Origin: Amycolatopsis jejuensis | GTDB lineage: Bacteria; Actinomycetota; Actinomycetes; Mycobacteriales; Pseudonocardiaceae | Length of the DNA: 64,000 nucleotides | Reading direction: 5' to 3' | Assembly (NCBI RefSeq): GCF_000717335.1 | Contig: NZ_JNYZ01000008.1 | Span: 62,001-126,000 of the forward strand | Shown: positions 27,454-43,663 of the stretch, one piece after another | How the letters are laid out: each line of letters opens with the position of its first letter | Position numbering within the stretch: position 1 is the first letter of the stretch | Made by a program: the position numbers and the translations under genes | Notes under the pieces: generated by a model | What the model saw: the letters and a program-made list of their open reading frames with translations, nothing else | What the model was told of the DNA's origin: nothing | Databases searched by the model: none

Positions 27454-27468
27454 ACCCGCCATGCTGCG

Positions 27469-27488
27469 ACTTAATGTGCACATGAAGT
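27469..27488. promoter_or_regulatory. 20-bp palindrome between methyltransferase and merR, over the merR start
   Basis: ACTTAATGTGCACATGAAGT is a near-perfect palindrome around ATGTGCACAT, AT-rich against the local background. It includes the merR ATG (27482-27484) and lies 7-16 bp upstream of the two possible methyltransferase starts. MerR proteins bind such long dyads between -35 and -10. Confidence 0.55.
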
Positions 27489-27946: not shown

Positions 27947-29630
27947 AGATCTTCTCCGCCGTCCGCGTCGAAAGCGCCTGCATGCTCAACGTCGGGTTCG
28001 CCCCGCTCACGCTGTTCGGCAACGCGGAGTTGTCGGCAATGTACAGCCCGTCCACCCACCGCGCGGCGCCGTTCTCGTCCAGCACCGAATTCGTCTCCGA
28101 ATGCCCCATCCGCATGCTCGACTGGACGTGCAGGATGATCGGCGCCCAGTCCATCCGGTACACCTTCGCCGCCCCGGCCGCACGGGCGATCTCGACCGCG
28201 CGGTGTACCAGGAACTCGCGGTTCGCCACCGTCCGCGCGCTGCGGTTGCGCTGATGCATCTCCAGCTTCGCGATGGACCCGTGCTCGTCGGCGGGCAGCG
28301 CGGACAGTGAGGTGCGGTTCTGGGCCTCGACGTCGTCGTCGGTCATGATCAGCATCGCGAACATCCGGTCGATGCCGTGTGTCATCACGTCTTTCAGTTC
28401 GTTGCCCAGCACGCGCCCGGCCGGGCCGTCCCAGGTTCCGGTGGGGCCACGGCCGTTCGCATACGCACCGCGGATTCCGCTGTCGGACATCGCCATCGTG
28501 AAACTCAGCAGCGCGGGCGGAATCCCGACGTTCATCACGCCGCCGCGGCCCGGCCAGTCCGAACGCGCCGACGAGCCGGTCCCCTTGCTCGACCCGGTGT
28601 ACTCGTCGAAAGTGCCGAACACCCAGTCGAAGTGGTGGTCGGTGTACCCGCGGCCGACCCAGTCGTTCGGGTTCGGCAGCCCGCTGTTGAGCCACAGCCG
28701 CGGATTTTCCGTGCAGCCACCGGCAAGGACGACGACCTTCGCGTCCTCCCGGTGCTTCTCGCCGGTGGCGCCGACCCGCCAGGTCACCCCGGTCGCGGTG
28801 GTCTTTCCGTTGCGCTGCTCGGTGTGCACCTGCGTGACGAACGCGTCGGTGCGCAGTTCGACCCGCTTGCCGCCGGGCGACCAGCGGTCGGCGGTCAACG
28901 CCATCGGCACGTAACTGTTGTCGGTGGACCGCTTCGCGATCTGGTTTCGCGGCGCCTTGACCGGATGACTGCAGCCGATGATGCAGTACCCGCAGAGCGT
29001 GCAGCCGGTCGACTGCGGGTACGCCAGCCGCAGCTCACGGTCGTTCCCGGCGACCTTGCCCGCGAACCCGCCCGGCTGCAGGATCGCGTTTTCCTGCGGG
29101 CGGAAGGAGTTCCGCGTGGTGGTCTTGCCGGTCTGCACCGGCAGCCCGAGGTTTTCGCAGCCGCGGAAGAACACTTCCTCCTTGGTGCCCATCGCGGCGG
29201 TCTGCACCGGCAGCGTCGCCTCGACCCACTCGTAGTAGGGCACGAATTCCTCGTAGCTGAACGGAAAGGGATGCGCTACGTCGTAAGCGTTCCGGTCCGC
29301 GCCCGCGTATCCGGCGAACGAACCCGGGTACGCACGCGGGCAGTTGCCGAAGTAGTGCTGGGTGGTCCCGCCGACGCCGGACAGCTGCCACAGGAACGAA
29401 TTCTGCGGCGTTTCCCGGTACCACGCGGGTTTCGCCCGGTCCGCGGGGCCGAAGCGGAGGAATCCGGTGAGCGGGTTGTTGGCGTCGTTCTCGTAGTGCG
29501 TCCACTCCTTGTCCAGGTCGGCGTGCCGTGGTCCACCTTCCAGCAGCAGCACGTCGAGGCCCTTCGCCGCGAGCTCCTTCGCCACGACCGGGCCACCGCC
29601 GCCCGCCCCGACCACGATCACGTCCCGCAT
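27867..29630 (-). CDS. GMC-family FAD-dependent oxidoreductase with four-Cys cluster
   Basis: 587 residues. FAD-binding GAGGGGPVVAKELAAKG at the N-terminus, ARWVDGLYIADNSALPNSVS near the C-terminus with the catalytic His in ILHVQSSMRMG, and NPTLSMQALSTRTAEKI mark the GMC fold. A GCTLCGYCIIGC cluster (Cys 210, 213, 216, 220) is like that of long-chain alcohol oxidases and gluconate/sorbose-type dehydrogenases, where it may bind an iron-sulfur or other metal centre. Start overlaps the stop of the Tat-signal protein gene by one base (TGATG). No own signal peptide, so it may be exported bound to that partner. Confidence 0.9.
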   Translation of the reverse strand: MRDVIVVGAGGGGPVVAKELAAKGLDVLLLEGGPRHADLDKEWTHYENDANNPLTGFLRFGPADRAKPAWYRETPQNSFLWQLSGVGGTTQHYFGNCPRAYPGSFAGYAGADRNAYDVAHPFPFSYEEFVPYYEWVEATLPVQTAAMGTKEEVFFRGCENLGLPVQTGKTTTRNSFRPQENAILQPGGFAGKVAGNDRELRLAYPQSTGCTLCGYCIIGCSHPVKAPRNQIAKRSTDNSYVPMALTADRWSPGGKRVELRTDAFVTQVHTEQRNGKTTATGVTWRVGATGEKHREDAKVVVLAGGCTENPRLWLNSGLPNPNDWVGRGYTDHHFDWVFGTFDEYTGSSKGTGSSARSDWPGRGGVMNVGIPPALLSFTMAMSDSGIRGAYANGRGPTGTWDGPAGRVLGNELKDVMTHGIDRMFAMLIMTDDDVEAQNRTSLSALPADEHGSIAKLEMHQRNRSARTVANREFLVHRAVEIARAAGAAKVYRMDWAPIILHVQSSMRMGHSETNSVLDENGAARWVDGLYIADNSALPNSVSGANPTLSMQALSTRTAEKIFTSRFGGDPWVGREAPVVSTDPRVGA

Positions 29631-30505
29631 CAGTTCGCCACCTTCTTCCGGCCCTGGTAGTAGCCCTTGAGTTCGTCCCAGCCGTGCACGACGCCGTCCG
29701 GCTGGTACCCGGTGAGCTGCCAGCCGACCGGGCGCGCGCGGAGGGTCTTGGACTGCGGGTCGTAGACGCTCCACTCGTTGTAGCTGCCGTAGGCGGAGAA
29801 TTCGAGCAGCGCACCGGCGAGGAACCGCAGCACGCCGGACAGCGTTTCGGTGAACGGCGGCGGGACGTTCGCGTCGAGCGTGGCCAGCAGATCCGGGTCC
29901 GGACCTTCGAGCTGTTCGAACACCCGGCATTTGTCCCGGTAGGACAGCCGGGCGAACGGCGACAGGAAAACGCCGTTCACCGCGGCCGGATTCACCTGCG
30001 TCGCGGTGAGATTGAGCAGCATTGCGACCACCGAGGACAGCGGTAACGTCGCGTCATTGCGCAGGACGGTGGCGAGGGCGTCGTCCAGGGTCGTCACCGG
30101 TGGGAGCGGGAGCGGAATGCCGGTGCCGCTCAGCCCCGCGGCGAGGCCCTGGCCGAGAGCTTTGCCGAGCTGGTCCGGGAACGGCACGAAATCGTCCAGC
30201 GACGCGATCATGAAATCAGTCGCCTTCGCCTCCATCGCCCCGGGCTCGCGGCGCGGCGTGCCCTGCGCGCGGGAGTACGCATCCGGTCCGGGACACGTCA
30301 TCACGACCAGCCCGTTCAGCGTGTCGCGCGCCAGTTCCGCGAGCACCGGCCGGAGCAGGCCGACGACATCATCCACTGTGGACGCCCCGGCCAGCGGTGC
30401 CTGGCCGCGCGCCAGCGGGCCGACCAGCCCACCGGCGGCCAGCGCGGCACCGAGCACGCCGATGCGGGCGAGGAACGTGCGGCGGTCGGATTCGGGTGCG
30501 GTCAC
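29630..30505 (-). CDS. Twin-arginine-signal protein paired with the GMC oxidoreductase
   Basis: 291 residues. The N-terminus holds a Tat signal: RRTFL followed by the hydrophobic stretch ARIGVLGAALAAGGLVGPLA. The rest has no catalytic motif I recognise but resembles small/gamma subunits of membrane gluconate or alcohol dehydrogenases by position and by the signal. GTG at 30505 is selected with GGAGAT ahead; a farther in-frame start would spoil the signal. Its likely role is to carry the GMC subunit out through Tat or anchor it. Confidence 0.75.
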   Translation of the reverse strand: MTAPESDRRTFLARIGVLGAALAAGGLVGPLARGQAPLAGASTVDDVVGLLRPVLAELARDTLNGLVVMTCPGPDAYSRAQGTPRREPGAMEAKATDFMIASLDDFVPFPDQLGKALGQGLAAGLSGTGIPLPLPPVTTLDDALATVLRNDATLPLSSVVAMLLNLTATQVNPAAVNGVFLSPFARLSYRDKCRVFEQLEGPDPDLLATLDANVPPPFTETLSGVLRFLAGALLEFSAYGSYNEWSVYDPQSKTLRARPVGWQLTGYQPDGVVHGWDELKGYYQGRKKVAN

Positions 30506-30630
30506 GGCATCTCCAGCAGTACGGGACGAGGGTCCGCCAAGCATTCCCGTCCGCCCGCCGCGGAACATTGGCAGTTCTTACTCCATTCGGCCCAGTTCGG
30601 TGGGCAGCTGCCCAACCGGCGGCCGGTGGT

Positions 30631-31815
30631 TCAGGGGACCAGCAGGGCGAGACGCAGCAGCAGCCCATCGCGCTCGTCGGCCACCGAGCGGCCGGTCAGC
30701 TGCTCGATCCGGGCGATCCGGTGCAGCACCGTGTTGCGGTGACAGTGCAGTTCGGCGGCTACCTCGGCCGCGGACCCGTCGTGCCGGAACCACGACCGCA
30801 GCGTGTCCACGAGCACGGCCTGTTTGTCACCGGCGAGCGACGGCAGCGCGCCGAACGCGCGCCGCCGGATCTGCTGCGCCACCGCCGGGTTCGCGGCGAG
30901 CAGCACCTCCGGCAGCCGCTCCTCGAACGCCACGACCTGCGGCTGCTGCGCCGGGACGGTGTCCGACGCGAGCTGCGCCATCCTAAACGCGGACGCCACC
31001 TCCGCCAGCCCGGCGACCTCGGCGGACACCCCCGCAGGCCGATCGACGACGGCCCGCAGCCGCGCAGTGAGCCGCTCGACCGGCGCGTCACCCAGCAAAA
31101 CCAGCCCGACGTCCTGGTCCGAGCGCGGGCACCATTCCGACCGGAACCCGTGCACGGCGAGCGCATCCCGCGGCGGCCAGGGCGGCGCGGCCGACGCCGT
31201 GTCGCGCCGCACCACCGCCACCACGAACCGGCCGTCCGCAGGCAGTTCCAGCAGGGTGCCCGCCTCGATCGCGACCTCCGGGTCCGCCCCGCGGCCGTCG
31301 AGGAGACCGTCGAGCATCGCCTGCCGCCGCTCGATGCTGCGGCGCATCGCGGCGGTCTCCTGCACGCGGTACTCGGCACTCGCGGTCTGCGACATCGTGT
31401 CGATCAGTTCGAGGACGAGCACCGCGCTGTCCAGCAGCTCCCCGATCGACTCCGGGCGGCGACTGCGGGCCTGCTCCACCAGCGCCGCCCACAGCACCTC
31501 GGTACCGAGCCGGTAAGCGTGCAGCAGCGATTCGAGGGGAAACCCGGCCTGCGCCCGCTGCCGCGCGGTGTGCCGGGCCGCGTCCCGGAAATCCACCCCC
31601 GGCGGGACCCGGTCCGCGAGGAACTGGGTGCAGCGGGTGAGGTTGTCGTGCAGCGACCTGGTCAGCTCGGCGGGAGTGACCGCTGCGGTCGTGCGGTAGG
31701 TGTCGTCCTTGGCGAGCAGGACCTCGTGCAGCCGGTCGGTCAGCTCGGGCACGCGATCGAGCAGGCACGCGGCGAGCTCGCGCAGGATCGGTGGCTGCGT
31801 TGCCACGCTCGTCAT
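30631..31815 (-). CDS. PucR/CdaR-type transcriptional regulator
   Basis: 394 residues. A C-terminal HTH_30 helix-turn-helix is clear: SWFRHDGSAAEVAAELHCHR and NTVLHRIARIEQLTGRSV. The middle GGDEF-like domain and N-terminal helical region fit the CdaR/PucR group that controls sugar acid, purine and alcohol genes. ATG at 31815 has GAGGTGG upstream. It is 125 bp upstream of the Tat/GMC pair in the same direction and most likely controls it. Confidence 0.87.
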   Translation of the reverse strand: MTSVATQPPILRELAACLLDRVPELTDRLHEVLLAKDDTYRTTAAVTPAELTRSLHDNLTRCTQFLADRVPPGVDFRDAARHTARQRAQAGFPLESLLHAYRLGTEVLWAALVEQARSRRPESIGELLDSAVLVLELIDTMSQTASAEYRVQETAAMRRSIERRQAMLDGLLDGRGADPEVAIEAGTLLELPADGRFVVAVVRRDTASAAPPWPPRDALAVHGFRSEWCPRSDQDVGLVLLGDAPVERLTARLRAVVDRPAGVSAEVAGLAEVASAFRMAQLASDTVPAQQPQVVAFEERLPEVLLAANPAVAQQIRRRAFGALPSLAGDKQAVLVDTLRSWFRHDGSAAEVAAELHCHRNTVLHRIARIEQLTGRSVADERDGLLLRLALLVP

Positions 31816-31960
31816 GCCCACCACCTCGTCAGCGCTGACCGGCCCGCCGGGTGTGGCCAGTGTGCGGGGCCGCCCCGGTCCCCGCCGGACGACAACCCTC
31901 ACGAAGGTGAGTGAACATTCCGTGATTTAGGCGATTACGGTCAGTGTCCTTCGTGGGTGA

Positions 31961-32845
31961 TCACAACCGCCGCGGATGGAACGCGTCGGAGATCGAAGCC
32001 ATCGGAGACTCCGCAGGCCACACCACCGTCGTACGCGACCACAACGGCTCATCCGCCAACCGCACCAACCGGACATCCTTGCGTTGCGCCGCCGTCCGAT
32101 GCAGCACCGTCACCGCGTGGCTCGACGCGACGAGTGCCTCCGCCGTTGCGCGGTCGGCGCCGAAATGGCGGAACCGCGGGGAAAATCCCGCCCGCTCGCA
32201 GGCCAGGCGCAGGCTCAGCCGCAGGCCGGAGGCGGCGTCCGGTGGGGCTACCCAGTCCTCGTCCGCGAGTTCGGCCAGGTCGACCTCGTCGCGGCCGGCG
32301 AATCGGTGTACCGCGCCCAGTCCGATCACCAGCGGCTCCACGCCCAGCAGGCGGCCGTCGAACTCCTCGTGGCCGGCCGGGGGGACGTCGGGGTAGTCGG
32401 TGAGGACCGCGACGTCCAGCTTTCCGTCGCGGAGCATGTCCACCACGGTGGCGGGGGTGGCCTCGATGTAGGTGATCTGGTCGCGGTCGGGCAGCAGGCG
32501 GCGGACCTCCGTCGCGATCACCGGGACCCACGGGTTGTCGCCGCCGCCGAGGCGCAGTTCCGAATGCTCCTGCTCGTCCGGTACCAGCAGTTTCGCGGTG
32601 GCCATGAGGTCGGCGAACCCGCGCAGCAGCTCCTCGGCCCGCAGGATCACGTGCCTGCCCAGCTCGGTCGGGACGACCCCGTCGCGGCTGCGGTCGAAAA
32701 GCGGCGCGCCGAAGCCCTGCTCGATCCGGCGCAGCTGGGCGGTGAGCCCGGACTGGGCCACCTTGAGCCGCGTCGCCGCCCGGCTGATCGCGCCTGCTTC
32801 GGCGACCACGACGACGATCCGCAGGTGGTGCAGTCCGAGATCCAC
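31961..32845 (-). CDS. LysR-family transcriptional regulator
   Basis: 294 residues. HTH at the N-terminus (LHHLRIVVVVAEAGAISRAA, TRLKVAQSGLTAQLRRIEQG) and the substrate-binding domain with an LGGGDNPWVPVIA-type opening. Start GTG at 32845 has GTGAGGT ahead. It is last in the three-gene set flavodoxin oxidoreductase, DHA2 exporter and LysR, 7 bp after the exporter, and could control both this operon and the divergent 3,4-AHBA-type cluster. An ATAAC-N6-GTTAT palindrome lies in that gap. Confidence 0.9.
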   Translation of the reverse strand: MDLGLHHLRIVVVVAEAGAISRAATRLKVAQSGLTAQLRRIEQGFGAPLFDRSRDGVVPTELGRHVILRAEELLRGFADLMATAKLLVPDEQEHSELRLGGGDNPWVPVIATEVRRLLPDRDQITYIEATPATVVDMLRDGKLDVAVLTDYPDVPPAGHEEFDGRLLGVEPLVIGLGAVHRFAGRDEVDLAELADEDWVAPPDAASGLRLSLRLACERAGFSPRFRHFGADRATAEALVASSHAVTVLHRTAAQRKDVRLVRLADEPLWSRTTVVWPAESPMASISDAFHPRRL

Positions 32846-32852
32846 GGGTACC

Positions 32853-34334
32853 TCACTGTGAGCCGGGGCGGGGGAACACGAAAACGGTGATCAGGACCCC
32901 AGCGGCGGTGAGCAGCACGGTCCAGCCCGCGGTGACGGACATGGCGTGCAGATAGGCATGGTCGGCGAGCGCGGCCACCTCCGGACGGCCGAGCGCCTTC
33001 GCCCCGGCAATCGACTGTGCGGCCCGATCCTGCTGGTCCGGCGGCAATCCCGGCACCGCAACCCCCTGCCGGTACCCGGCGGCGAGGATCGACCCGAGTA
33101 CCGCGACCCCCAGCGTGCTGCCCAGCGGCCGGGTCACCGAGTTGACCGCCGCCCCGGCCCCCACCATCGACCCGGGCAGCGCCGTCATCATCTGTTCGGT
33201 CAGAGCGGGCAGCAGTACCCCGATTCCCAGCCCCTGCACGAAAAGGAGCAGGATGAACCACACCAGGGCAGTGGACTGGTCCAATAGCAGGTACGCCGCA
33301 TACGTCGCCCCGGTGGCGGTGAGCGCGGCCGCGACCGTCAGCCGCGCGCCGAAACGGCGGACCAGCGCCGGAGACATCTGATTGCCCGGAATGATCCCCG
33401 CCGCCGCAGCCACCATCACGCCGCCTGCGGCCAGGGTCGACAGCCCACGCACGCCCTGCAGGTAGAACGCGCAGTAGTACAGCTGACCGGCCAGGCACAG
33501 GAAGGCCAGCAGCAACACGGCGCTGCCACCGCCGAACGCGGCCCGGCGGAAGAGCTTGAGGTCGAGACTCGGCTTGGCCGAGAACCGTTGCTGCACCACG
33601 AAAGCAATCAGCAGCAACACCCCGATCGCCAACGCGGCGAGCACGTCGAAGCCGAACCTGCCGTCGCCCGCCTCGACGATCCCGTACACGAGCGCGGCCA
33701 GCCCTACCCCGGACATCACCAGGCCGAGCGGATCGAGCGGCCGCTGCCCGTGCCCGCCGCGCCCGGGTACCACGAGCACGACCCCGATCAGGCAGGCCAC
33801 CGCCACCGGCAGGTTGACCAGGAAGATCGACCCCCACCAGAACCGCGCGAGCAGCAGCCCGCCCAGCACCGGGCCGAGCGCGACCGCAATCCCGCCGGAC
33901 GACGCCCACACCGCGATCGCGCGCGAACGTCCGGCCGGGGTGCTGCAGCGGGTCACGACGGCCAGCGTCGCCGGGGTGACCAGCGCGCCACCCGCCCCCA
34001 TGAAGCACCGCGCCACGACGAGTTCCGTTGCAGTGGCGGAGAATGCGGCGACTGTGGCCGACCCCGCCAGCACCAGCAGGCCGCTGACCAGCGCGGCCCG
34101 CGGCCCGATCCGGTCGGTCAGGGCACCGCCGACCAGCGCGACGGCGGTGAACACCAGGGAGTACGAGCTCACCGCCCAGGTCAGCTCGGTTGCGCTCGCA
34201 CCGAGGCCGCGGACCGGGTCGGCCAGGGATTCGACCGCGATGTTGACGATCGTGTTGTCCAGCAAGACGAGCATCTGCCCGGCCACCGCGACGGCGACCG
34301 CCCAGCGGGACCCGGTGGTGACGGCAGTGATCAC
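32853..34334 (-). CDS. DHA2-family MFS drug exporter (EmrB/QacA type)
   Basis: 493 residues, about fourteen helices, the DHA2 size. Motifs include LLDNTIVNIAVESL in helix 1 (motif D1), LTDRIGPRAALVSGLLVLAG (motif A) and GPVLGGLLL (motif C for antiporters). It exports drugs or secondary metabolites with protons. GTG at 34334 is 4 bp past the upstream stop with a weak ribosome site, so translational coupling is likely. Position against the plus-strand cluster suggests self-protection or product export. Confidence 0.9.
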   Translation of the reverse strand: MITAVTTGSRWAVAVAVAGQMLVLLDNTIVNIAVESLADPVRGLGASATELTWAVSSYSLVFTAVALVGGALTDRIGPRAALVSGLLVLAGSATVAAFSATATELVVARCFMGAGGALVTPATLAVVTRCSTPAGRSRAIAVWASSGGIAVALGPVLGGLLLARFWWGSIFLVNLPVAVACLIGVVLVVPGRGGHGQRPLDPLGLVMSGVGLAALVYGIVEAGDGRFGFDVLAALAIGVLLLIAFVVQQRFSAKPSLDLKLFRRAAFGGGSAVLLLAFLCLAGQLYYCAFYLQGVRGLSTLAAGGVMVAAAAGIIPGNQMSPALVRRFGARLTVAAALTATGATYAAYLLLDQSTALVWFILLLFVQGLGIGVLLPALTEQMMTALPGSMVGAGAAVNSVTRPLGSTLGVAVLGSILAAGYRQGVAVPGLPPDQQDRAAQSIAGAKALGRPEVAALADHAYLHAMSVTAGWTVLLTAAGVLITVFVFPRPGSQ

Positions 34335-34338
34335 CTGG

Positions 34339-34956
34339 TCACCGCGCGGCGGCTTCCCGGTTCGCCAAGGCCAGCCGTCCGGCCACCACGATCCGCACCT
34401 GCTCCCCGACCCGGCGGCCGAGGTGTTCCGCCGTCCGCAGATCCGATTCGTGCATGGCCTCGGGTTTTTCGTCCACATTGGACTGCGCGGCCGCGCCCGC
34501 GAAAAAGCCCAGCCGGTTCACGTCGGATTCGGCGCCGGAAACGCGGTTCCAGCCCGCCGGTAAACCCAGGTTCACCCAGGTCATTCCGTGTTGCGCGGCG
34601 AGGGTCGCGAAATAGCCGAGCGTTCCGGATTTGTCGCCCGCTTTGGCACCGGAGTTCGTGAAACCGGCGGCGAGTTTGTCGTGCCACCGGCGCACGAACT
34701 GCCGACGGCTGCTGGCTTCCGCGAAGGCGTGGAATGCCGCCGAGGCCGTGCCCATGTACGTCGGCGCCCCGAAGACGATCGCCGCCGCCTCGTCCAGTTT
34801 CCCCCACTGCGCCGGGGTCATCTCGGTGACCGGGACGGGGACGACTTCGATGTCCGGCACGGTTTCCAGCCCGGATCCGACCGCCGCGGCCAGCCTCGCC
34901 GTGTGCCCGCGCCCGCCGTGGCAGGCGATGGCGACGGTGATCTGCAACGACGGCAC
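34339..34956 (-). CDS. Flavodoxin-fold NAD(P)H oxidoreductase (WrbA/FMN type)
   Basis: 205 residues. The N-terminal VAIACHGGRGHTARLA phosphate loop and IVFGAPTYMGTASAAFHAF flavin-contact segment are flavodoxin/WrbA features, with GTLGYFATLAAQHGM after. It probably reduces quinones or quinone-imines using FMN and NAD(P)H, useful with redox-active aminophenols. GTG at 34956 is preceded by GGGAGG. First gene of the exporter-LysR set, divergent from the 3,4-AHBA operon. Confidence 0.85.
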   Translation of the reverse strand: MPSLQITVAIACHGGRGHTARLAAAVGSGLETVPDIEVVPVPVTEMTPAQWGKLDEAAAIVFGAPTYMGTASAAFHAFAEASSRRQFVRRWHDKLAAGFTNSGAKAGDKSGTLGYFATLAAQHGMTWVNLGLPAGWNRVSGAESDVNRLGFFAGAAAQSNVDEKPEAMHESDLRTAEHLGRRVGEQVRIVVAGRLALANREAAAR

Positions 34957-35032: not shown

Positions 35033-35048
35033 ATAACCGCGGAGTTAT
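35033..35048. promoter_or_regulatory. Palindrome in the divergent promoter of the 3,4-AHBA cluster
   Basis: ATAAC-CGCGGA-GTTAT, 16 bp, sits in the 180-bp gap between the flavodoxin gene (34956) and the first biosynthetic gene (35137). Spacing and symmetry resemble LysR-type boxes, and a LysR gene is in the adjoining operon. No strong ribosome site is seen before 35137. Confidence 0.45.
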
Positions 35049-35136: not shown

Positions 35137-35943
35137 ATGAGAAATGCAGGAAAAGCATTCCGGCTGCGGCGGCTTTCCCCGCCCGGCGACGGCCGGTATC
35201 TGTTCGTCCCATTGGACCACAGCGTGTCCGACGGACCGGTGGTCCCGCAGCACCGCTGGGACGGCCTGGTCCGCGCACTGGCCGCCGGGGGTGCCGACGC
35301 GGTCGTGGTGCACAAAGGCCGGGCCAGGGCACTGGATCCGGCGCTGCTCGGGCAGTGCGCGGTGATCGTCCACCTCAGCGCGGGCACCTCCCTCGCCGCC
35401 GACGCCGACGCCAAGGTACTGGTCGGGGACGTCGAGGACGCGGTGCGGCTCGGTGCGGACGCGGTCAGCGTGCACGTGAACATCGGATCGCACACCGAAC
35501 AACGGCAGCTGAGCGACCTCGGCGTCGTGGCGAGCTCGTGCGAGACGTGGCACATGCCGCTGCTGGTGATGATCTACCCGCGTGGCCCGCGGATCGCCGA
35601 TCCGCACGATCCGGCGCTGCTCGCGCACCTCGTGAACATCGCGGCGGATCTCGGCGCCGATCTGGTCAAGACCTCGGTCACCCGCTCCCCCGGGCAGATG
35701 GCCGAGGTGGTCGCCAGCTCGCCCATTCCGGTGCTCGCCGCCGGCGGGCCGTCCGACGGCTCCGACCTCGCGGAGTACGGCGCGGCCCTGATGGCGGCGG
35801 GCTGCCAGGGTCTTGCCGTCGGCCGCCGCGTCTTCACCGCCGCCGAGCCGGCGCAGGCCGTCGCGCAGCTCGCGAATGTCGTCCACCCGGCCGTCCTCGC
35901 GGCCGGAACCTCGTACCCGACCGTTCGGAGTGGTGCCGCATGA
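35137..35943 (+). CDS. griI-like: DhnA-type aldolase: 2-amino-4,5-dihydroxy-6-oxo-7-(phosphooxy)heptanoate synthase, GriI-like
   Basis: 268 residues. A class I aldolase of the DhnA/ADH-synthase family: VPLDHSVSDGP (Asp27-His28) and the Schiff-base Lys178 in DLVKTSVTRSP. In grixazone and asukamycin pathways the homologue GriI joins aspartate-4-semialdehyde and dihydroxyacetone phosphate to a C7 amino sugar that GriH closes to 3-amino-4-hydroxybenzoate. The next gene is a GriH homologue, which makes this role far likelier than an archaeal shikimate one. ATG 35137 chosen by homology; no good ribosome site. Stop overlaps the next ATG (ATGA). First gene of the ten-gene operon. Confidence 0.88.
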   Translation: MRNAGKAFRLRRLSPPGDGRYLFVPLDHSVSDGPVVPQHRWDGLVRALAAGGADAVVVHKGRARALDPALLGQCAVIVHLSAGTSLAADADAKVLVGDVEDAVRLGADAVSVHVNIGSHTEQRQLSDLGVVASSCETWHMPLLVMIYPRGPRIADPHDPALLAHLVNIAADLGADLVKTSVTRSPGQMAEVVASSPIPVLAAGGPSDGSDLAEYGAALMAAGCQGLAVGRRVFTAAEPAQAVAQLANVVHPAVLAAGTSYPTVRSGAA

Positions 35944-37037
35944 AATTCGCCTGGATCGACCTTCGGAGCACCCCGGCGGAGCAGCGCGAGGCGGTGGTCG
36001 ACGCCGCCATCCACAGCAGGCTCGCGGGCGTCCTTTCCGACGACGCGGCCGTGCTCGCCACCTTGCCGCCCACCATCACCGGCGTCTTCGTCCCGGGCAG
36101 CGGCACCGAAGAACGCGTGCCGGGACGGGTCACCGTCACAGAAATCGCCGACCGGGGCGAGCTGGACCGGCTGCCGCAGTCTCCCGAGAACGAGACCGCG
36201 GGCTGGGTCGACGTCCGCGACGACCGGACGCTCCAGCTCGCGTGCGCGGCCGCCGTCGCACTGCCGTACACCGTGGTGCGCTTCGCCGATCCGACCAAGA
36301 TCCCGCTGGAGATCGTGCTCGCCGCAGCCGACCGGGCACCGGGCAGCCTGGTCACCGTCTGCGCGGACCTCGAAGAGGCCGGGATCGTGCTCGACGTGCT
36401 CGAACGCGGGTCCGAAGGCGTCCTGCTGGCCCCGGCGAACGCGGCCGAGGTGTTCGCGCTGGCGCGGCTCCTGGGAGCGGCCTCCCCGGAGGTTCCGCTC
36501 ACCACGCTGACCGTCGACGGCATCGAGCATCTCGGCCTCGGTGACCGGGTCTGCGTCGACACGTGCTCGCATTTCGCCGAGGACGAAGGCATTCTCGTCG
36601 GGTCGTTCTCCACCGGATTCATCCTGTGCTGCAGTGAAACCCATCCGCTGCCGTACATGCCGACCCGGCCGTTCCGGGTCAACGCGGGCGCGCTGCACTC
36701 GTACGTCCTCGGCCCGGACAACCACACCAACTACCTCAGCGAGCTGCGCTCCGGCGGCACCGTGCTCGCGGTGAACGCCGAGGGCCGTACCCGCCGCGTG
36801 CTCGTCGGGCGGGCGAAGCTGGAATCCCGGCCACTGCTGATGATCACCGCGCACGCGGGTGACGGGACGGTGGTCAGCCTCACCGTGCAGGACGACTGGC
36901 ACGTGCGGGTGCTCGGGCCCGGCGGGAAAGTCCGCAACGTCACCGAACTCCAGCTCGGGGACGAGCTGCTCGGGCACCTCGCCACCGACCAGCGGCACGT
37001 CGGCCATCCCATCGGTGAGTTCTGCAAGGAAAGCTGA
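35940..37037 (+). CDS. griH-like: DHQS-II-type enzyme: 3-amino-4-hydroxybenzoate synthase, GriH-like
   Basis: 365 residues, archaeal-type 3-dehydroquinate synthase II fold. The family patterns VDTCSHFAEDEGILVGSFST, PTRPFRVNAGALHSYVL and NYLSELRSGGTVLAV are clear, as in GriH, AsuA2 and NspH. With GriI it turns a C7 amino keto phosphate into 3-amino-4-hydroxybenzoic acid, releasing phosphate and water. ATG overlaps the griI-like stop; the stop overlaps the next ATG by one base (TGATG). The pair supplies the aromatic building block of the cluster. Confidence 0.88.
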   Translation: MKFAWIDLRSTPAEQREAVVDAAIHSRLAGVLSDDAAVLATLPPTITGVFVPGSGTEERVPGRVTVTEIADRGELDRLPQSPENETAGWVDVRDDRTLQLACAAAVALPYTVVRFADPTKIPLEIVLAAADRAPGSLVTVCADLEEAGIVLDVLERGSEGVLLAPANAAEVFALARLLGAASPEVPLTTLTVDGIEHLGLGDRVCVDTCSHFAEDEGILVGSFSTGFILCCSETHPLPYMPTRPFRVNAGALHSYVLGPDNHTNYLSELRSGGTVLAVNAEGRTRRVLVGRAKLESRPLLMITAHAGDGTVVSLTVQDDWHVRVLGPGGKVRNVTELQLGDELLGHLATDQRHVGHPIGEFCKES

Positions 37038-38431
37038 TGGCCGCACACCGGATGGGAGACCTGGTCAGCGAGCTGTTCGCGGCCCGGCCCGGCGATCTGC
37101 CGTACCTGGTCCACGCGCACGGATCGGTGTCACGGGCCGCGCTCGACGCCGATTCCGCCGAGGAAGCGGCGGTGTTCCGTGCCTACGACATCGGGGAAGG
37201 ATCGACGGTCCTGCTGCAGATTCCGCCCAGCTGCACGCAGGTGGAAGTGCTGCTCGCGCTGTGGCGGGTGGGTGCGCAGGTGCTGCTGGTCGACCATCGG
37301 CTCACCGGCGCGGAAGTCGACCAGCTGCGCCGGTTGTGCCGTCCGCAGTTCCTGGTGCGCGGCGGGGTCGCGGGCAAATCGGTGCTCGGCTTCCAGGAAC
37401 GGTACGAGCTGGTCACCGCTCGCCTTCCCGGCGGGCGGGCGGCGGACAGCGCGCACCGGCTCGTGCAGTTCAGCTCCGGGTCCACCGGCGTGCCCAAGGT
37501 GATCGGCCGGACGCCGGAGTCGGTGGCTGCGGAGATCGCCCGGTTCGCCGCCATCCCGGGGATGCCGGTGCAGGGCGAACGGGTGCTGCTGCTCAGTTCC
37601 ACCGCGCACAGTTTCGGCCTGATCGCGGGACTCCTGTACGCGCTGGCGCACGGCGTCACCGTGGTGTTCGCCCCGCGGGTGTCGGCGCGCGACATGCTGG
37701 CCACCGCAGCGGAAAACGACGTCGCGGCCATCTTCGGCACGCCATTTCACTACGAGCTGCTCACCACGGCCGCGTCGGTGCCGCCGCTGCCGAAGCTGCG
37801 GGTCGCGGTGTCCGGCGGCGAGCTGATGGTCCCGGCGGTCGCCGAAGCCTTCCGGGAACGGTTCGGCGTCGGGATCGGCGAGTCGTACGGCACCACCGAG
37901 ACGGGCGTGATCGCGATGGACACCGCGCCTGCGCACCGCCCGTCGGTGGGGCCGCCCGCGCCGGGCATCGAGGTACGGATCGCCGACGGAGAGCTGGAAG
38001 TGCACCTGCCGGACGGTTCGCCGTATCTGCACGGGTCCGGCGGCGACCGCTATGTCGACAGCTGGCTGCGTACCCGCGACCGCGCCGAAATCACCGCCGA
38101 CGGCACGGTCTCGCTGCTGGGCCGCGGTGATTCCCTCGTGGTGGTCGGCGGACTGAAGGTCGACCTTCTCGAAGTCGAGGCCGTGCTGCGCGAGCACCCC
38201 GGGGTCACCGAGGCGGTCGTCGTGCACACCGGCACGATCGAGGCGTACGTCTCGGTTTCCGCGGCGGGACCGTCCAAAGTGGACCTCTTGCGCTGGTGCC
38301 GGGAACGGCTCGCCGCGTTCAAACATCCCAAGCTGCTGCACGTGCTCCCGGCGCTCCCCCGCACGTCCAACGGCAAGCTCGTCCGGCACGCCGGTGCGCT
38401 GCGTGCCGCCGAACCGGCCGCCGCCCGCTGA
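37037..38431 (+). CDS. Stand-alone adenylating enzyme (ANL superfamily), likely 3,4-AHBA activating
   Basis: 464 residues, short for an AMP ligase. The P-loop FSSGSTGVPKVIG (145-157), ESYGTTETG (motif A5) and PRTSNGKLVR (A10 Lys) are intact, so it can adenylate a carboxylate. It likely loads 3-amino-4-hydroxybenzoate onto one of the two following carrier proteins, as AsuA3 does in asukamycin. The substrate is inferred from its place right after the griIH pair. Starts one base into the griH stop; 22 bp before the first carrier protein. Confidence 0.85.
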   Translation: MAAHRMGDLVSELFAARPGDLPYLVHAHGSVSRAALDADSAEEAAVFRAYDIGEGSTVLLQIPPSCTQVEVLLALWRVGAQVLLVDHRLTGAEVDQLRRLCRPQFLVRGGVAGKSVLGFQERYELVTARLPGGRAADSAHRLVQFSSGSTGVPKVIGRTPESVAAEIARFAAIPGMPVQGERVLLLSSTAHSFGLIAGLLYALAHGVTVVFAPRVSARDMLATAAENDVAAIFGTPFHYELLTTAASVPPLPKLRVAVSGGELMVPAVAEAFRERFGVGIGESYGTTETGVIAMDTAPAHRPSVGPPAPGIEVRIADGELEVHLPDGSPYLHGSGGDRYVDSWLRTRDRAEITADGTVSLLGRGDSLVVVGGLKVDLLEVEAVLREHPGVTEAVVVHTGTIEAYVSVSAAGPSKVDLLRWCRERLAAFKHPKLLHVLPALPRTSNGKLVRHAGALRAAEPAAAR

Positions 38432-38453
38432 CCTCCCCACGAAAGGCCCGAAC

Positions 38454-38726
38454 ATGCCCGTCAACCTCGAAACCGAGATCCGCGAGTTCGTCCTCACCAC
38501 GCTGGCCAAGGACATGAACCATCCCGTGCCCGAGGGCTCGGCCGGCGACGACAGCCCGATGGGCGCGGGCGGGATCGACCTCGACTCCCTCAGCCTCATC
38601 GAGCTGACCATCCGGCTGGAGCAGCGCTTCGGCGTCGAGTTCCCGGAAACGAGCATCGAGCCGTTCGGGGCGATGACGCTGCAGGAACTGGTGGCCGACC
38701 TGGTGCAGCGCGGGGCTTCCGCATGA
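38454..38726 (+). CDS. Acyl carrier protein
   Basis: 90 residues. GGIDLDSLSLIELTIRLEQR carries the phosphopantetheine Ser45 in a D-S-L context, and the four-helix ACP pattern is complete. AAAGG ribosome site before ATG 38454. The stop overlaps the ATG of a second carrier protein (ATGA). It would hold either the 3,4-AHBA starter or the growing chain as a thioester. No phosphopantetheinyl transferase gene is in the window. Confidence 0.9.
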   Translation: MPVNLETEIREFVLTTLAKDMNHPVPEGSAGDDSPMGAGGIDLDSLSLIELTIRLEQRFGVEFPETSIEPFGAMTLQELVADLVQRGASA

Positions 38727-38980
38727 CCGCAGAGCTCACCACGAGCGCCGTGCGCGACCTGCTGCAGGACGAGAAACTGGTGGCGCATCTCCCGGCCGAG
38801 CTCACCGACGACACGGAGCTCACCTTCGATTCGCTCAGCCTCGTGTGGCTGCTGCACCTGGTCGAACAGCGGCACGGGCTGGTGGTCCCGCCGTCGGACG
38901 AGGCATTCGCCGAATGCACGTCCGTGCGCGGGATCACCGAGTGGCTGCAGGGCGTGCAGGCGGGCCGCGATGAGCCGTGA
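38723..38980 (+). CDS. Second acyl carrier-like protein
   Basis: 85 residues. ELTFDSLSLVWLLHLVEQRH contains a D-S-L motif (Ser37), so it can be phosphopantetheinylated, but it differs much from the first carrier (different helix 1, Trp in helix 2). Two unlike carriers beside two adenylating enzymes suggest each pair handles a different acid. Overlaps both neighbours: ATGA at the start and 11 bp into the ketosynthase gene. Confidence 0.82.
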   Translation: MTAELTTSAVRDLLQDEKLVAHLPAELTDDTELTFDSLSLVWLLHLVEQRHGLVVPPSDEAFAECTSVRGITEWLQGVQAGRDEP

Positions 38981-40094
38981 GGTAGTGGTCACCGGCTTCG
39001 CCGTGCACACGGCTTTCGGCGGTCGCGTTGCGACGCGGGACGGCGTATTCGGCGGCGGTTCGGCCTTCTCGCCGGTCACGCGATTCGACACGGCGCCGTT
39101 CCGCGCGTCCGCAGCGGCAACCGACGGCACCCCGGGGCCGGGTTCGCTGCGGGACGCGCTGAATGCCTGTGCCGCCGACGCGGCAGCCGGGTTGCCCGAT
39201 CGCGAGGACACCGCCGTACTGCTCGGCACGGCCGGGGACTTCACCGGGGTAACGGGATTCTGGCGGTCCGGGACCGCGGCGGGCGACACGGTGCCGGTCC
39301 GGCTGGCCGACCTGGTCGCCGAGCACCTCGGCGCGCGCGGGCCGCGGCTTGCGTTCACCAACGCGTGCGTCGCGTCCGCGGTCGCGATCATGCACGCGTG
39401 CCGCCTCATCGCCAGCGGACGGCTCGATTCGGCCGTCTGCGCGGGTGCTTACCTGGTGGAGGAAGAGAACTTCGCGAAGTTCGACTCCGGCATGGCGTTC
39501 TCGCGCGACGGCGTGGTCCGGCCGTTCAGCGCGGGCCGGAGCGGGTTGTTGCTCGGCGACGGCGTGGCGGCGATCCTGCTGGAGGCAGGCGACACCGCAC
39601 GGCGCCGGGGCGCCCGGCCGCTCGCCGCAGTGATCGGCTGGGGGATGGCTGCCGACGCGCACCACATCGCCCGGCCGCACCCGCAGGCCCACGGGCTGGC
39701 GTCCGCGGCACGGCAGGCGCTGCGCCGCGCCGGGGACCCGGACGGCCGCTGGGTCGACTACGTCAACGCGCACGGCACCGCGACCAAAGCCAACGACCCG
39801 GCCGAAACCACCGGTCTGCGCACGGTTTTCGGCAACCGCCCGGTACCGGTCAGCTCCACCAAAGGCGCGACCGGGCATCTGCTGGAGGCAGCCGGTGCCG
39901 TCGAGTTCGTGATCACGCTGATGGCCATGCTCGACGGGGTGCTGCCGCCCACCGCCGGGTACACGAAACCGGATCCCGCGTGCGACCTCGACGTCGTACC
40001 CAATCAGGCGCGCCGCGCGGACGTGTGGCGGGCGCTGACCGTGAACGCGGCCTTCGGCGGCGCCAACACCGCGTTGCTGCTGGAGCGCCGATGA
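38970..40094 (+). CDS. Beta-ketoacyl synthase (FabF/type II KS-like)
   Basis: 374 residues, shorter than FabF (about 410). Catalytic triad intact: Cys133 in FTNACVASAVA, His268 in NAHGTATKAND and His303 in STKGATGHLLEAAGA with Lys298. It should condense an acyl starter with a carrier-bound extender. It sits between two carriers and a shortened KS-like partner, similar to a KS/chain-length-factor pair. Relatives are found in aryl polyene and manumycin-type clusters. Overlaps the upstream carrier gene by 11 bp and the next ATG by 4. Confidence 0.88.
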   Translation: MSREVVVTGFAVHTAFGGRVATRDGVFGGGSAFSPVTRFDTAPFRASAAATDGTPGPGSLRDALNACAADAAAGLPDREDTAVLLGTAGDFTGVTGFWRSGTAAGDTVPVRLADLVAEHLGARGPRLAFTNACVASAVAIMHACRLIASGRLDSAVCAGAYLVEEENFAKFDSGMAFSRDGVVRPFSAGRSGLLLGDGVAAILLEAGDTARRRGARPLAAVIGWGMAADAHHIARPHPQAHGLASAARQALRRAGDPDGRWVDYVNAHGTATKANDPAETTGLRTVFGNRPVPVSSTKGATGHLLEAAGAVEFVITLMAMLDGVLPPTAGYTKPDPACDLDVVPNQARRADVWRALTVNAAFGGANTALLLERR

Positions 40095-40675
40095 CCGATC
40101 TCCGCTTGCAGGTGCTGGCTTCGGGGCTCGCCACGCCGCACGACACCGACGACGCCCCTGCACTGACCGGCTTCATCGAGTCCGAGTTCAACCCGCTCGT
40201 GCACCGGGTCGCGTGGCAGTGTCTCAGCGGCCGCGACCTCGACGGTGCCCGCACCGCTGTCGTGCTGGCCAGCCGATTCGGCGACGCGACCACCGCGGAC
40301 GTCGCCAGCCGTCAGCTCGTCGCCGGGCGCGTGCACAACGCGCTGCTGTTCATGCAGGCCACCGCGAATGCGATTCTCGGTCACGTGAGCCTGCAGTTCT
40401 CTCTCACCGGACCGCTGATGTCGTTGTCCGCCAACGATTCCGCGGACGAGCTGCTCTCCGTCGCCGATCTGCTGCTCGACGACGGCGACGTGGACCACGT
40501 GTTGCTGATCAACGTGGAGCTGGCTGCCGGGGACCGCGTCGAGGCCGTCTGTGCCGAGCTGGGGAGCACGCCGCCGTCCGAAGATCGGGCCGCCGGAGTG
40601 CTGGTCAGCCGGGGTGCCGAACCGCTTGCCGACCATCGCCGCCTGCTCGACCTGACCCCAGGAGTCCTTCGATGA
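40091..40675 (+). CDS. Short ketosynthase-like protein lacking the catalytic Cys (chain-length-factor-like)
   Basis: 194 residues, matching the N-terminal KS-like domain (PF13723-type, as in chain-length-factor proteins of aryl polyene clusters). The FNPLVHRVAWQCLSG and TAVVLASRFGDATTADVASR blocks align, but where KS have the active Cys (TACAS) this reads SLSANDSADE, so an Asp near residue 116 takes its place. It cannot condense by itself and most likely dimerises with the KS just upstream. It lacks the C-terminal thiolase half. ATGA overlap on both sides. Confidence 0.8.
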   Translation: MTDLRLQVLASGLATPHDTDDAPALTGFIESEFNPLVHRVAWQCLSGRDLDGARTAVVLASRFGDATTADVASRQLVAGRVHNALLFMQATANAILGHVSLQFSLTGPLMSLSANDSADELLSVADLLLDDGDVDHVLLINVELAAGDRVEAVCAELGSTPPSEDRAAGVLVSRGAEPLADHRRLLDLTPGVLR

Positions 40676-42309
40676 TCACCAAGGAAGACCGTGCCCGGAT
40701 ACTGGCCGACCGGGAGCTCGGCGCGGGCAACGTGCTGCACCGGGTCAAGGAATACGGGTACCCGCTGGACGAACCCGCATTGTGGACCGGCGGGACCTGG
40801 CTCGCGCCGGACGGGACGCGGCCGGAGGTTCTCACGCTCGGCGAGCTGCACGAGATCGTCGAGACCTATGCGGGCTGGTTCCACGCGCAGGGGGTGCGGC
40901 CGCGCGATCCGGTGGCGATCCAGACGTTCTCCAGCACCGAGTTCGCCGTGAACTACCTCGCGCTGACGTCGCTGGGCGCCATTCCGTCGTTCGTCAACGG
41001 GAATCTGCGGCCGGAGATCGCGCGGGAGTACATCCGCCGCCAAGGCGTGGCCGGAGCAGTCGCCGACGACACGCATCACGGCGATCTGGCCGAGCTGGGG
41101 CTGCGGTTCTGCGTGACCGCGGCGGACGTCCACCGGGAGCCGCTGCCGGGCACGTACCCGTACCGCCATCACGCCACCGACCCGATCATCATCTCGCATT
41201 CCTCGGGTACCACCGGGATGCCGAAGGCCGTGCCGCACACGCACGAAACCCTGCTGTACGCCCAGTTGTACCGGCTTCGGCTGTCCATCGGGGCGGGGAT
41301 GGGGCGGCTGCTCGTCGCGCTGCCCGGGTCACACAATGCGGCCATTTCGGTGATGCTGTTCGGGTTCCTGCTGCGGGCGCCGGTGCGGATGCTGTCCAGC
41401 CAGCGCGGCGCCGACGTACTCGACGCGATCGAGGAATTCAAGCCCACCACGGTGTTCGCGTTCGCCGGTACCTACGGCGAGATGGCCACGAGTGACCTGA
41501 GCAAGCGGGAGATGTCCAGTATCGAAGCCTGGTACAACACGGGTGACGCCGCGCACGAGGCACACGTGCGCGCGTTGATCGCGCAGGGCAGCCACGAAAC
41601 TGTGGGCCGGGATCTCAAGCGCCACCGGGCACCCGGGTCGGTGTTCACCGACGGGCTGGGGTCGTCGGAGACCGGGTACTCGCTGTTCCACAATGGACAC
41701 CACCTGGGCAGCGAGGCGTACGGGCGGTGCATCGGCAAGCCGATCAGCTTCGCCGAGGCCGCGGTGCTGTCCGAGGACGGCCGCCCGCTGCCGCCGGGGG
41801 AAATCGGGCGGCTCGGTGTCCGGTCGCCGACGCTCACGCCGGGGTACTGGAACGATTCGCTCGCCTTCCACCGGCTGCGGCTGGGCGGGTACTGGCTCAC
41901 CGGCGATCTGTCCTATCGGGACGAGGACGGCAACTTCTACCACCTCGACCGCGCGCCGGACGCGGTCCGTACGGCGGCGGGGATCGTGTTCAGCACGCGG
42001 ACCGAGGAACTGCTGCTGCGTGAACTGTCCGAACTGGACGATTGCACGGTGGTCGCGGTGGCGCCGGACGGCGTCGACGCCAGCTGGGACGGCACCGGCG
42101 AGGGCGAGGCGTACGTGCTGCTCCAGGTCGCCGATGGGGATGCCGACTGGACTCAGCGGGTCAACGACGTGCTCGCCGCGCATGGTTTCCCCTTGGTGGC
42201 CAAGGCGTTGCGGCTGAATGCGGAGGACGTGACCAAGGGCGCGACCGGGAAGGTGCTCAAACGGGAGCTGCGGGAGCGGTTCCGGGTCGCCGGCGGGGAG
42301 GTCCGGTGA
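40672..42309 (+). CDS. Second AMP-dependent acyl ligase (ANL superfamily)
   Basis: 545 residues. P-loop SHSSGTTGMPKAVPH (175-188), DGLGSSETGYS, GYWLTGDLSYRDEDGNFYHL (hinge Asp region) and the TKGATGKVLKREL C-terminal Lys are present. Full-length, unlike the first ligase, and only distantly like it, so it should activate a different acid, perhaps a fatty or second aromatic acid, to a CoA or carrier thioester. AGGAG ribosome site with ATGA overlap onto the KS-like gene; GTGA overlap with the next. Confidence 0.85.
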   Translation: MITKEDRARILADRELGAGNVLHRVKEYGYPLDEPALWTGGTWLAPDGTRPEVLTLGELHEIVETYAGWFHAQGVRPRDPVAIQTFSSTEFAVNYLALTSLGAIPSFVNGNLRPEIAREYIRRQGVAGAVADDTHHGDLAELGLRFCVTAADVHREPLPGTYPYRHHATDPIIISHSSGTTGMPKAVPHTHETLLYAQLYRLRLSIGAGMGRLLVALPGSHNAAISVMLFGFLLRAPVRMLSSQRGADVLDAIEEFKPTTVFAFAGTYGEMATSDLSKREMSSIEAWYNTGDAAHEAHVRALIAQGSHETVGRDLKRHRAPGSVFTDGLGSSETGYSLFHNGHHLGSEAYGRCIGKPISFAEAAVLSEDGRPLPPGEIGRLGVRSPTLTPGYWNDSLAFHRLRLGGYWLTGDLSYRDEDGNFYHLDRAPDAVRTAAGIVFSTRTEELLLRELSELDDCTVVAVAPDGVDASWDGTGEGEAYVLLQVADGDADWTQRVNDVLAAHGFPLVAKALRLNAEDVTKGATGKVLKRELRERFRVAGGEVR

Positions 42310-42785
42310 CCGATCCGGAGACGATGGAGGTCTACCGGCAGTGGTGGCTGCACGACGCCCGCTGGTACCAGGGCGTCGCGAAGCGGTTCGGGCCCGAGGT
42401 GGCGAACGAGATCAACGCCGAGGCGCTGCGGTTCGTCGCCACGCAGGTCGGGAAGCGGGTGGCGCGGCAGCACGGCTTGCCGTCCGGGATCGAGGAGCTG
42501 CGGGACCGGTATGACACGTGCGCGTCCCGGATGTTCCCGGAGGAACTGCGCAACGGCGGGGTCGAGGTGCTCGGCGACGATCTCGTCGAGCTGACCATGC
42601 GGCAGAACTTCGCCGTGACGATGGTCCGGATGGCCGGTTCGCTGGACGGCTACGAATGCCCGTGCACCGACATCCACGCGGGCTGGTCGGAGGGACTGGG
42701 CGTCGAACTGGCGGAGAACCGCGCGACCGGCTGCCTCCGCCACGGCGACCGCGCGTGCCGGTTGCTGATGCGGGTCCGGGACTGA
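42306..42785 (+). CDS. Small Cys/His-containing protein of unknown function
   Basis: 159 residues; family not firmly recognised. Opening YRQWWLHDARWYQGVAKRFG is Trp/Tyr-rich; the C-terminus holds GYECPCTDIHAGWSEG and ATGCLRHGDRACRLL, where CxC...H...CxxHGDxxC recalls V4R-type or DUF6125 proteins and ATC-hydrolase-like small domains. It may bind metal or a small aromatic ligand. Coupled on both sides (GTGA, TGATG), so it is part of the cluster. A tailoring or ligand-binding role is a guess. Confidence 0.7.
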   Translation: MTDPETMEVYRQWWLHDARWYQGVAKRFGPEVANEINAEALRFVATQVGKRVARQHGLPSGIEELRDRYDTCASRMFPEELRNGGVEVLGDDLVELTMRQNFAVTMVRMAGSLDGYECPCTDIHAGWSEGLGVELAENRATGCLRHGDRACRLLMRVRD

Positions 42786-43663
42786 TGCGGATCGCAGTGG
42801 CCGGAGCGACGGGGGTCGTCGGCCGTGCTTTGGTACCGGTGTTGCGGGCGGCCGGACATCACGTGACCGCCCTGGTCCGCGACCCGGCTTCGGTGGACGC
42901 CGATGCCGTCCTGACCGCCGACGCCCTGGACCCGTCCGCCGTCCGCGCCGCGGTGGCGGCCGCGCGGCCGGAAATCCTGGTGCATCAGCTGTCCGCGCTG
43001 CGCAGCCCGACGGCTTTCGAGTCGACGGCCCGGTTGCGCAGGGAGGGCACCGCTTCCCTGATCGCCGCGGCCCGGGAAGCTGGTGTGCGGCGGGTGATCG
43101 CGCAGAGCATCGCTTTCGCCCATGCGCCGGTCGGTGCCCTGGTGGTCGACGAGGACGCCCCCCTGTACTTGGACGCGCCCGATCCTGGCTGGGCGATGAC
43201 GGTCGGGGCGGTCGCCGATCTGGAACGGCAGGTGTTGTCGGTCGGCGGTACCGTCCTGCGCTACGGCGCGTTGTACGGCACGGGAACGCAGTACTCGCTC
43301 GACGGCCCGTTCGCGACCGCCCTGACCCGCGGCCGGTATCCGCTGGCCGGTGACGGTGCCGGGATGACGTCGTTCCTGCACGTCTCGGATGCTGCCCAGG
43401 CCGTCGCCGCGGCCGTGGAAAGTGCGGCGACGGGGGTCTTCCACATCACCGACGACCACCCGGTCCCGGCGTCGTCGTGGCTACCGTCGTTCGCCGCCCG
43501 GGTGGGTGGGCCGCCGCCGCGGGTCCTCCCGGCGCCGATGGTGGAGCGGATGCTGGGCTGGCCGGCGGCCCACCAGATGACCGCACAGCGAGGCGCCGCG
43601 AACACCCGTGCCCGTGCCACGCTGGGCTGGCACCCGAGCCGGGTCCCGGAGTGGACGACCTGA
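42785..43663 (+). CDS. NAD-dependent epimerase/dehydratase-like (extended SDR) protein
   Basis: 292 residues. The Rossmann motif GATGVVGRALVPVLRAAGHH is intact. The YxxxK motif expected in extended SDRs is not seen: the segment after the first Ser has AQSIAFAHAPVG and later LRYGALYGTG, so it is an atypical or NmrA-like member. It probably performs a redox or isomerising step on the cluster product. ATG overlaps the previous stop by one base; ends 100 bp before the third 55-bp palindrome. Confidence 0.85.
   Translation: MRIAVAGATGVVGRALVPVLRAAGHHVTALVRDPASVDADAVLTADALDPSAVRAAVAAARPEILVHQLSALRSPTAFESTARLRREGTASLIAAAREAGVRRVIAQSIAFAHAPVGALVVDEDAPLYLDAPDPGWAMTVGAVADLERQVLSVGGTVLRYGALYGTGTQYSLDGPFATALTRGRYPLAGDGAGMTSFLHVSDAAQAVAAAVESAATGVFHITDDHPVPASSWLPSFAARVGGPPPRVLPAPMVERMLGWPAAHQMTAQRGAANTRARATLGWHPSRVPEWTT

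Follow-up and report, generated by a model that had tools for sequence, protein, structure and literature searches.

The DNA considered here, termed the window, is a stretch of 64,000 nucleotides from Amycolatopsis jejuensis (contig NZ_JNYZ01000008.1, positions 62,001 to 126,000; host genome of 10.1 Mb in 136 contigs) that harbors an operon of ten genes encoding a small, type II-like assembly line, probably primed with 3-amino-4-hydroxybenzoate (3,4-AHBA). The operon and the three genes that diverge from it are listed below with their window coordinates and the letters used for them in the text.

31961..32845, minus strand: R, LysR-type regulator, CmaR counterpart (Pfam LysR_substrate and HTH_1); a counterpart is divergent from the operon at 22 other loci
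32853..34334, minus strand: F, predicted MFS exporter, CmaF/AvaF counterpart (MFS_1, DHA2-like); position conserved
34339..34956, minus strand: G, WrbA/FMN-reductase-like protein, CmaG counterpart (FMN_red; WrbA-like PDB 3d7n)
35033..35048, no strand: palindrome ATAAC-N6-GTTAT, probable CmaR operator; conserved site in the G-I gap
35137..35943, plus strand: I, predicted aldolase of 3,4-AHBA formation, GriI/AvaI/CmaI-like (NCBIfam models, DeoC)
35940..37037, plus strand: H, predicted 3,4-AHBA synthase, GriH/AvaH/CmaH-like (BagC/FevH and DHQS-II family models)
37037..38431, plus strand: A1, ANL acyl-acyl carrier protein ligase predicted to load 3,4-AHBA (AMP-binding and C domain)
38454..38726, plus strand: A2, carrier protein, extender (malonyl) by homology (PP-binding)
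38723..38980, plus strand: A3, carrier protein, starter by homology (PP-binding; W42 and H45; DSLSLVWLLH)
38970..40094, plus strand: A4, ketosynthase with intact catalytic motifs (ketoacyl-synt N and C; CVAS, NAHGTAT, TKGATGH)
40091..40675, plus strand: A5, short chain-length factor without the ketosynthase active-site Cys (PF00109; alignment; tree)
40672..42309, plus strand: A6, predicted ATP-dependent aryl-amine diazotase (NF058622; 68% to AVAA6_STRSQ)
42306..42785, plus strand: B, AvaB/CmaB counterpart with a predicted V4R/Bet3 fold (conservation, structure model)
42785..43663, plus strand: A7, predicted NADPH-dependent diazo-denitrifying reductase (NF058621)

A codon-score gene caller finds the same ten genes on the plus strand, from 35137 to 43663, and since six of the 18 window genes in its training set are operon members it provides no independent check for those six. 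As described in an initial annotation of this DNA, the genes mostly overlap: eight of the nine junctions do so by 1-11 bp, the exception being a 22-bp gap between A1 and A2 (38431/38454). Scans with Pfam and NCBIfam bear out the family content given there, namely a GriI-type DeoC aldolase, a GriH-type DHQS-II family protein, two ANL enzymes, two carriers, a ketosynthase, a short ketosynthase-like protein, a 159-aa Cys-containing protein, and an NAD-binding "epimerase".

The last two steps of the predicted pathway are the most informative. The second ANL enzyme, A6 (40672-42306), scores 1097.9 bits against NF058622, the model for 3-aminoavenalumate diazotase (cut-off 975), and is 68% identical to AvaA6 itself (AVAA6_STRSQ, P0107), while the NAD-binding protein, A7 (42785-43660), scores 428.9 bits against NF058621, the model for 3-diazoavenalumate denitrifying reductase (cut-off 400). 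As sequence matches go, we take these two to decide the matter of the cluster's identity. The initial annotation had both families right and misread both roles, regarding A6 as a further adenylating enzyme and A7 as epimerase-like. With A6 as a diazotase and A7 as a denitrifying reductase, the amino group would probably be removed, and coupling to a second acid, as suggested earlier, becomes unnecessary. The nearest solved structure to A6 is 8ztz/9ijf (875 bits over residues 1-538), titled only "Putative AMP-binding enzyme"; that it is perhaps CmaA6 is a guess of ours with no search result behind it.

Two characterized clusters carry the same gene set and are tied to known products, avenalumic acid for ava and p-coumaric acid for cma (Kawai et al., PMC10777205, cited here and below from the available portions of the text), which corrects the earlier view that the arrangement has no obvious counterpart. 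In Kutzneria albida the cma operon runs I-H-A1-A2-A3-A4-A5-A6-B-A7-E-D, and the cluster also lists cmaR (LysR), cmaF (MFS), and cmaG (FMN oxidoreductase) (PMC10777205). The divergent FMN, MFS, and LysR genes of the window match cmaG, cmaF, and cmaR, and on this basis the cluster is placed in the cma subtype, whose mark, the presence of CmaG- and CmaR-like genes and the absence of AvaA8, is found here. Our reading, with a probability of about 0.9, is therefore of a cma-subtype biosynthetic cluster in Amycolatopsis that turns 3,4-AHBA into p-coumaric acid by diazotization and deamination, with LysR control, MFS export, and nitrous acid from outside.

In this pathway, each step of which, like the chain length, product, and regulation, is modeled on the characterized ava and cma systems, H and I would produce 3,4-AHBA, and A1 would load it onto the carrier A3. 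The A4/A5 pair would extend this starter with malonyl-A2, most likely once, and G, together with a dehydratase recruited from the fatty acid pathway and with B assisting, would convert the beta-keto group into an alkene. A6 would then use ATP and nitrous acid, the latter supplied from outside the cluster, to diazotize the free 3-aminocoumaric-type acid, and A7 would swap the diazo group for a hydride, with loss of nitrogen gas. The likely product, p-coumaric acid, would thus arise from 3,4-AHBA by one extension, reduction, dehydration, diazotization, and deamination; it would be exported by the MFS protein, and the LysR protein would act on the divergent promoters via ATAAC-N6-GTTAT. The initial proposal that a type II-like line starts from 3,4-AHBA and makes a short product is supported, the cma precedent being a single extension.

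The individual proteins are consistent with these assignments. H scores 406 bits against the BagC/FevH 3,4-AHBA synthase model (below its cut-off of 750) versus at most 236 against the DHQS-II equivalog models, and 520.8 against a mixed DHQS-II family model (cut-off 375), which argues, as was originally supposed, that the pair does not belong to the shikimate branch; I scores 282 bits against the BagB/FevI model (below its cut-off of 500) and 296 against NF005556 (above its cut-off of 241). The host genome harbors a second 3,4-AHBA locus, L126 564-10732 (C11:404563-414731), whose H and I are around 50% identical to those of the window, and which also encodes a ketosynthase III-like protein, two carriers, a C-A-PCP nonribosomal peptide synthetase protein, a thioesterase, a P450, and an ANL protein; it looks like a separate AHBA-peptide pathway.

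The ketosynthase A4 retains CVAS (C133), NAHGTAT (H268), and TKGATGH, and these patterns, loosened from a stricter first version that matched 1 of 71, match 68 of 71, the misses being L027 (fragment), L064, and L072 (wrongly extracted). Its partner A5 (194 aa), previously called Cys-less, aligns without a Cys at the ketosynthase active-site position, although Cys44 and Cys154 are present elsewhere in the protein; it matches the AmcG model below cut-off and no PDB chain by sequence search. A Trp/His pair (W42/H45) reported for CmaA3 (PMC10777205) is found in A3 and is absent from A2 in the window, and the pattern DS[LM]x[LI]xWxxH, fixed after sight of the sequences (a stricter first version matched 1 of 66), occurs in 65 of 66 A3 proteins (L070 deviates) and in none of 66 A2 proteins. 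Pfam detects no ketoreductase, dehydratase, acyltransferase, thioesterase, or oxidase among the ten proteins, as stated at the outset, but that statement missed the adjacent, divergent G, since the cmaG product is proposed as a ketoreductase in the cma paper (PMC10777205). A stand-alone type II system without ketoreduction was considered and rejected, as G adjoins the operon. An AvaA8-type ketoreductase is not found at the cluster, the sole A8 match in the window (34%, at 1010) lying far outside it.

The arrangement recurs elsewhere. A scan of genome contigs with the diazotase profile gave at least 79 loci among the matches listed, of which 72 (L003-L074) were classified together with the window; the remaining seven (L075-L081) match at only 23-28%. 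All ten genes are present in the same order and direction at 55 of the 72, where A1 is 59-68% identical, and the order is kept with genes missing at 13 more, six of them at a contig edge, so that the ten-gene arrangement is more than chance. With the window included, R and G are found at 23 of 73 loci and an AvaA8-type ketoreductase at 34; the other 16 have neither the R/G pair nor A8, several of them being cut by contig ends. G and A8 occur together at none of the 73, the 22 other R/G loci being without AvaA8 within the fetched flank, and G is 59-71% identical across 23 other loci. There is no A7 match within the fetched flank of the otherwise ava/cma-like diazotase clusters L003, L007, L013, L030, L068, and L135, nor in L039, where the contig ends; the product of the first six might keep a diazo or amino group.

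The other four loci (L064, L070, L071, and L073) are different clusters. L070 2126-12457, from Paenibacillus oenotherae (Bacillota), has matches to A1 (40%), to A2-A5, and to the diazotase (an ANL protein at 39%; 431.8 bits, below cut-off), along with a trans-2-enoyl-CoA reductase, OsmC, a FAS1-like dehydratase, and a second ketosynthase-like protein, and has no I, H, B, or A7 match; it is possibly a novel type II system that forms a diazo group. In the cyanobacterial L071 8753-14139 (Brasilonema), a diazotase-like gene (37%) lies near I/H homologues (38, 49%), with no A4/A5 match, and in L064 10001-13419 (Crossiella) a diazotase-like gene (55%) adjoins an AvaE-like gene (58%), with only a 34% A4 match several kb off.

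LysR boxes have the form T-N11-A. The 180-bp gap between G and I contains one perfect ATAAC-N6-GTTAT (35033-35048), a pattern that 100 shuffled versions of the window do not contain. It is present in the G-I gap of 19 of the 23 R/G loci (the window and 18 others; missing in L003, L007, L014, and L063), in none of the 34 A8 loci, and nowhere else in the 1,482,960 bases of the 73 loci; since it was picked after viewing the gaps, the 19 of 23 is descriptive and the absence elsewhere serves as the control. Its T-N11-A-like form and the divergent LysR gene make it the probable CmaR operator. Genome-wide there is one perfect copy, with two one-mismatch places (C21, C43) that are no excess over a backward control (15), and a single copy points to no unlinked nitrite gene. 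Being specific to the subtype, the palindrome offers a handle for finding or switching on such clusters. Beyond R, the PucR, GMC oxidoreductase, and methyltransferase genes (26725-31902) were rejected as cluster members for poor matches in ava/cma-type loci: for PucR and GMC there are none, apart from a PucR match of 31% in L064, a distant locus, and for the methyltransferase there are only matches of 36-38%, at eight loci and several kb past the operon. The test is a weak one, as sequence beyond R amounts to only 1 to 2,764 bases in the R/G loci; it tells against a conserved PucR next to R and less against the other two.

Protein B (159 aa) is 66-80% identical in the 55 complete loci, has five invariant cysteines (C72, C118, C120, C143, and C151), and shows similarity to DUF6125/ATC_hydrolase below cut-off. 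Its structure model (predicted local distance difference test score 92.5) matches the V4R/Bet3 fold of phenol sensors; such sensors hold phenol, and Bet3 holds a fatty acyl group. The model also matched H-NOX domains (Foldseek) and BcsD (VIA-align), so phenol binding cannot be deduced from the fold by itself. By sequence, the B profile found no PDB chain (best E 1.1), and 9y83, the sole match of B alone (E 0.013), is taken as chance. The stimulating role of AvaB is called unknown in PMC10777205, and the confident model of this family provides a structural hypothesis for it. A tentative and rather unlikely elaboration is that the pathway runs without its own nitrous-acid synthase, on nitrite from elsewhere, and that B, as a metal-site protein of V4R/Bet3 fold, holds the phenolic acyl chain and so makes it available to the short type II synthase, by presenting or releasing it.

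Several points weigh against a p-coumaric acid pathway of the cma subtype. The published cma cluster includes E and D, which are found neither at this locus nor elsewhere in the 64-kb window. A single extension is not guaranteed, as the chain-length factor falls outside both the cma-like Kutzneria clade and the ava clade. The AvaE clade contains no protein of this genome, so that diazotization may be short of nitrous acid or may draw on a different source of nitrite. L133, of the same genus, has E and D, yet has no R/F/G match within 5 kb beyond I, and R/F/G are therefore not a strict mark of this lineage.

The best-surviving alternative, which we regard as somewhat unlikely, is the same cluster type with another chain length, giving avenalumic acid (two extensions) or a homologue as set by a third-clade chain-length factor. 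The 70-row A5 tree puts the window protein together with P0122, P0124 (Amycolatopsis ultiminotia), and P0128, apart from both large clades, with poorly supported deep forks and long-branch warnings; a third clade of chain-length factors is reported, and other chain lengths are suggested for it, in PMC10777205. In the A6 tree (72 rows) the window lies in an 18-row set (support 95), apart from the Kutzneria and ava groups. Both are quick searches with support from the Shimodaira-Hasegawa-like approximate likelihood ratio test only and no bootstrap, and they leave out L004, L027, L072, and L074 (partial or badly extracted). Against another chain length, the 194 aa of A5 fit the 165-207 aa of 21 of the 23 R/G clusters (L074 has 221, L030 290) and not the 224-307 of the 34 A8 clusters, lengths that are approximate as the starts were set by script, and R, F, and G mark the cma subtype, for which a single extension is the precedent.

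The supply of nitrous acid bears on a second, distinctly unlikely alternative, in which usable nitrous acid is absent, the pathway stops at 3-aminocoumaric acid, and A6 and A7 are idle relics. Linked E and D are found in 11 of the 23 R/G clusters and in none of the other 12, the window included, although L006 is unjudgeable (its contig stops some 150 bp past A7) and L063 only partly judgeable (its contig stops some 1.2 kb past A7). As 72 of 134 ava-like biosynthetic gene clusters also lack E/D (PMC10777205), their absence does not exclude this cluster type. The best E-like proteins of the genome, C9:144635 and C22:20819, are only 33-41% identical and form a clade (100) with proteins of G001, G002, G013, and G014, outside the 41-row set of linked E proteins (92, under the tree program's star). 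Likewise consistent with starvation, the genome has NarG matches only below cut-off and no nitric oxide synthase. Against idle relics stand A6 and A7 themselves, full length and above equivalog cut-offs, the equally full-length A6 of P0002 and P0003 (the nearest relatives), and the best D-like gene of the genome, C12:92709-94049 (54-57% identical), which scores 624.4 bits against the nitrosuccinate lyase model (cut-off 650), compared with 649.9 for the linked D of L014 and 663.5 for the linked D of L068. The E and D trees omit E rows of up to 400 aa and D rows of up to 300 aa (L118 among them), and a truncated L028 row with an end branch of 9.28 spoils the drawn root of the D tree.

Supply from elsewhere has parallels among the relatives. 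At 1e-60, E is found in 26 and D in 28 of the 30 genomes searched, a threshold that takes in paralogues. In G017, G020, G021, and G023, E-like (57-60%) and D-like (57-60%) genes lie on separate contigs and the diazotase cluster is without E/D, in line with supply from elsewhere, though in draft assemblies the distance is not proven. Within Amycolatopsis a diazotase above cut-off occurs in 6 of 80 genomes, the host included, and of four loci retrieved from this set, three (L132, L133, and L134) encode E, D, and A7 whereas L135 lacks all three. E/D are thus linked (L132, L133, and L134), on another contig (the genome of L044, A. anabasis), or not found (the window), and such variation within one genus, of A7 as well, makes the question of nitrous-acid supply testable. 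As for an AHBA-extended or two-acid amide made by a cluster of a kind not seen before, the two ANL proteins, two carriers, and missing thioesterase would suit it, but the exact match to characterized gene sets already refutes it, leaving it highly improbable.

The cluster can finally be set beside known systems. The I/H pair is common to the window and the grixazone, bagremycin, and ferroverdin clusters, with models below their own cut-offs. The remainder of those clusters is presumably unlike the window's. The AmcB/F/G proteins of cispentacin (carrier, ketosynthase, and chain-length factor-like; NCBIfam) are matched by A2, A4, and A5, all below cut-off, and the cispentacin cluster is not known to have diazotase or AHBA genes. 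The spinamycin spi cluster, which has a fused SpiED and is compared by its available description only, shares an aryl polyene product and an AvaA6-type diazotase (SpiA7), and differs in its hydrazide product and lack of a 4-hydroxy group. The ava cluster of Streptomyces sp. RI-77 has I, H, A1-A7, and B in common with the window (PMC10777205, and PMC11705231 in its available portions). In contrast to the G and R of the window, ava has a FabG-like A8 and AvaC (PMC10777205), and A8-type loci have longer chain-length factors. The closest system is cma of Kutzneria albida, with the same I-to-A7 order, R/F/G genes, and no AvaA8 (PMC10777205); it differs in its linked E/D, and the chain-length factor of the window lies in a clade other than those of the Kutzneria loci examined, namely K. 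viridogrisea (L020), L018, L019, L021, and L063, K. albida itself not being among them. This kind of cluster is already in print, and the window adds to it an Amycolatopsis example of the cma subtype.

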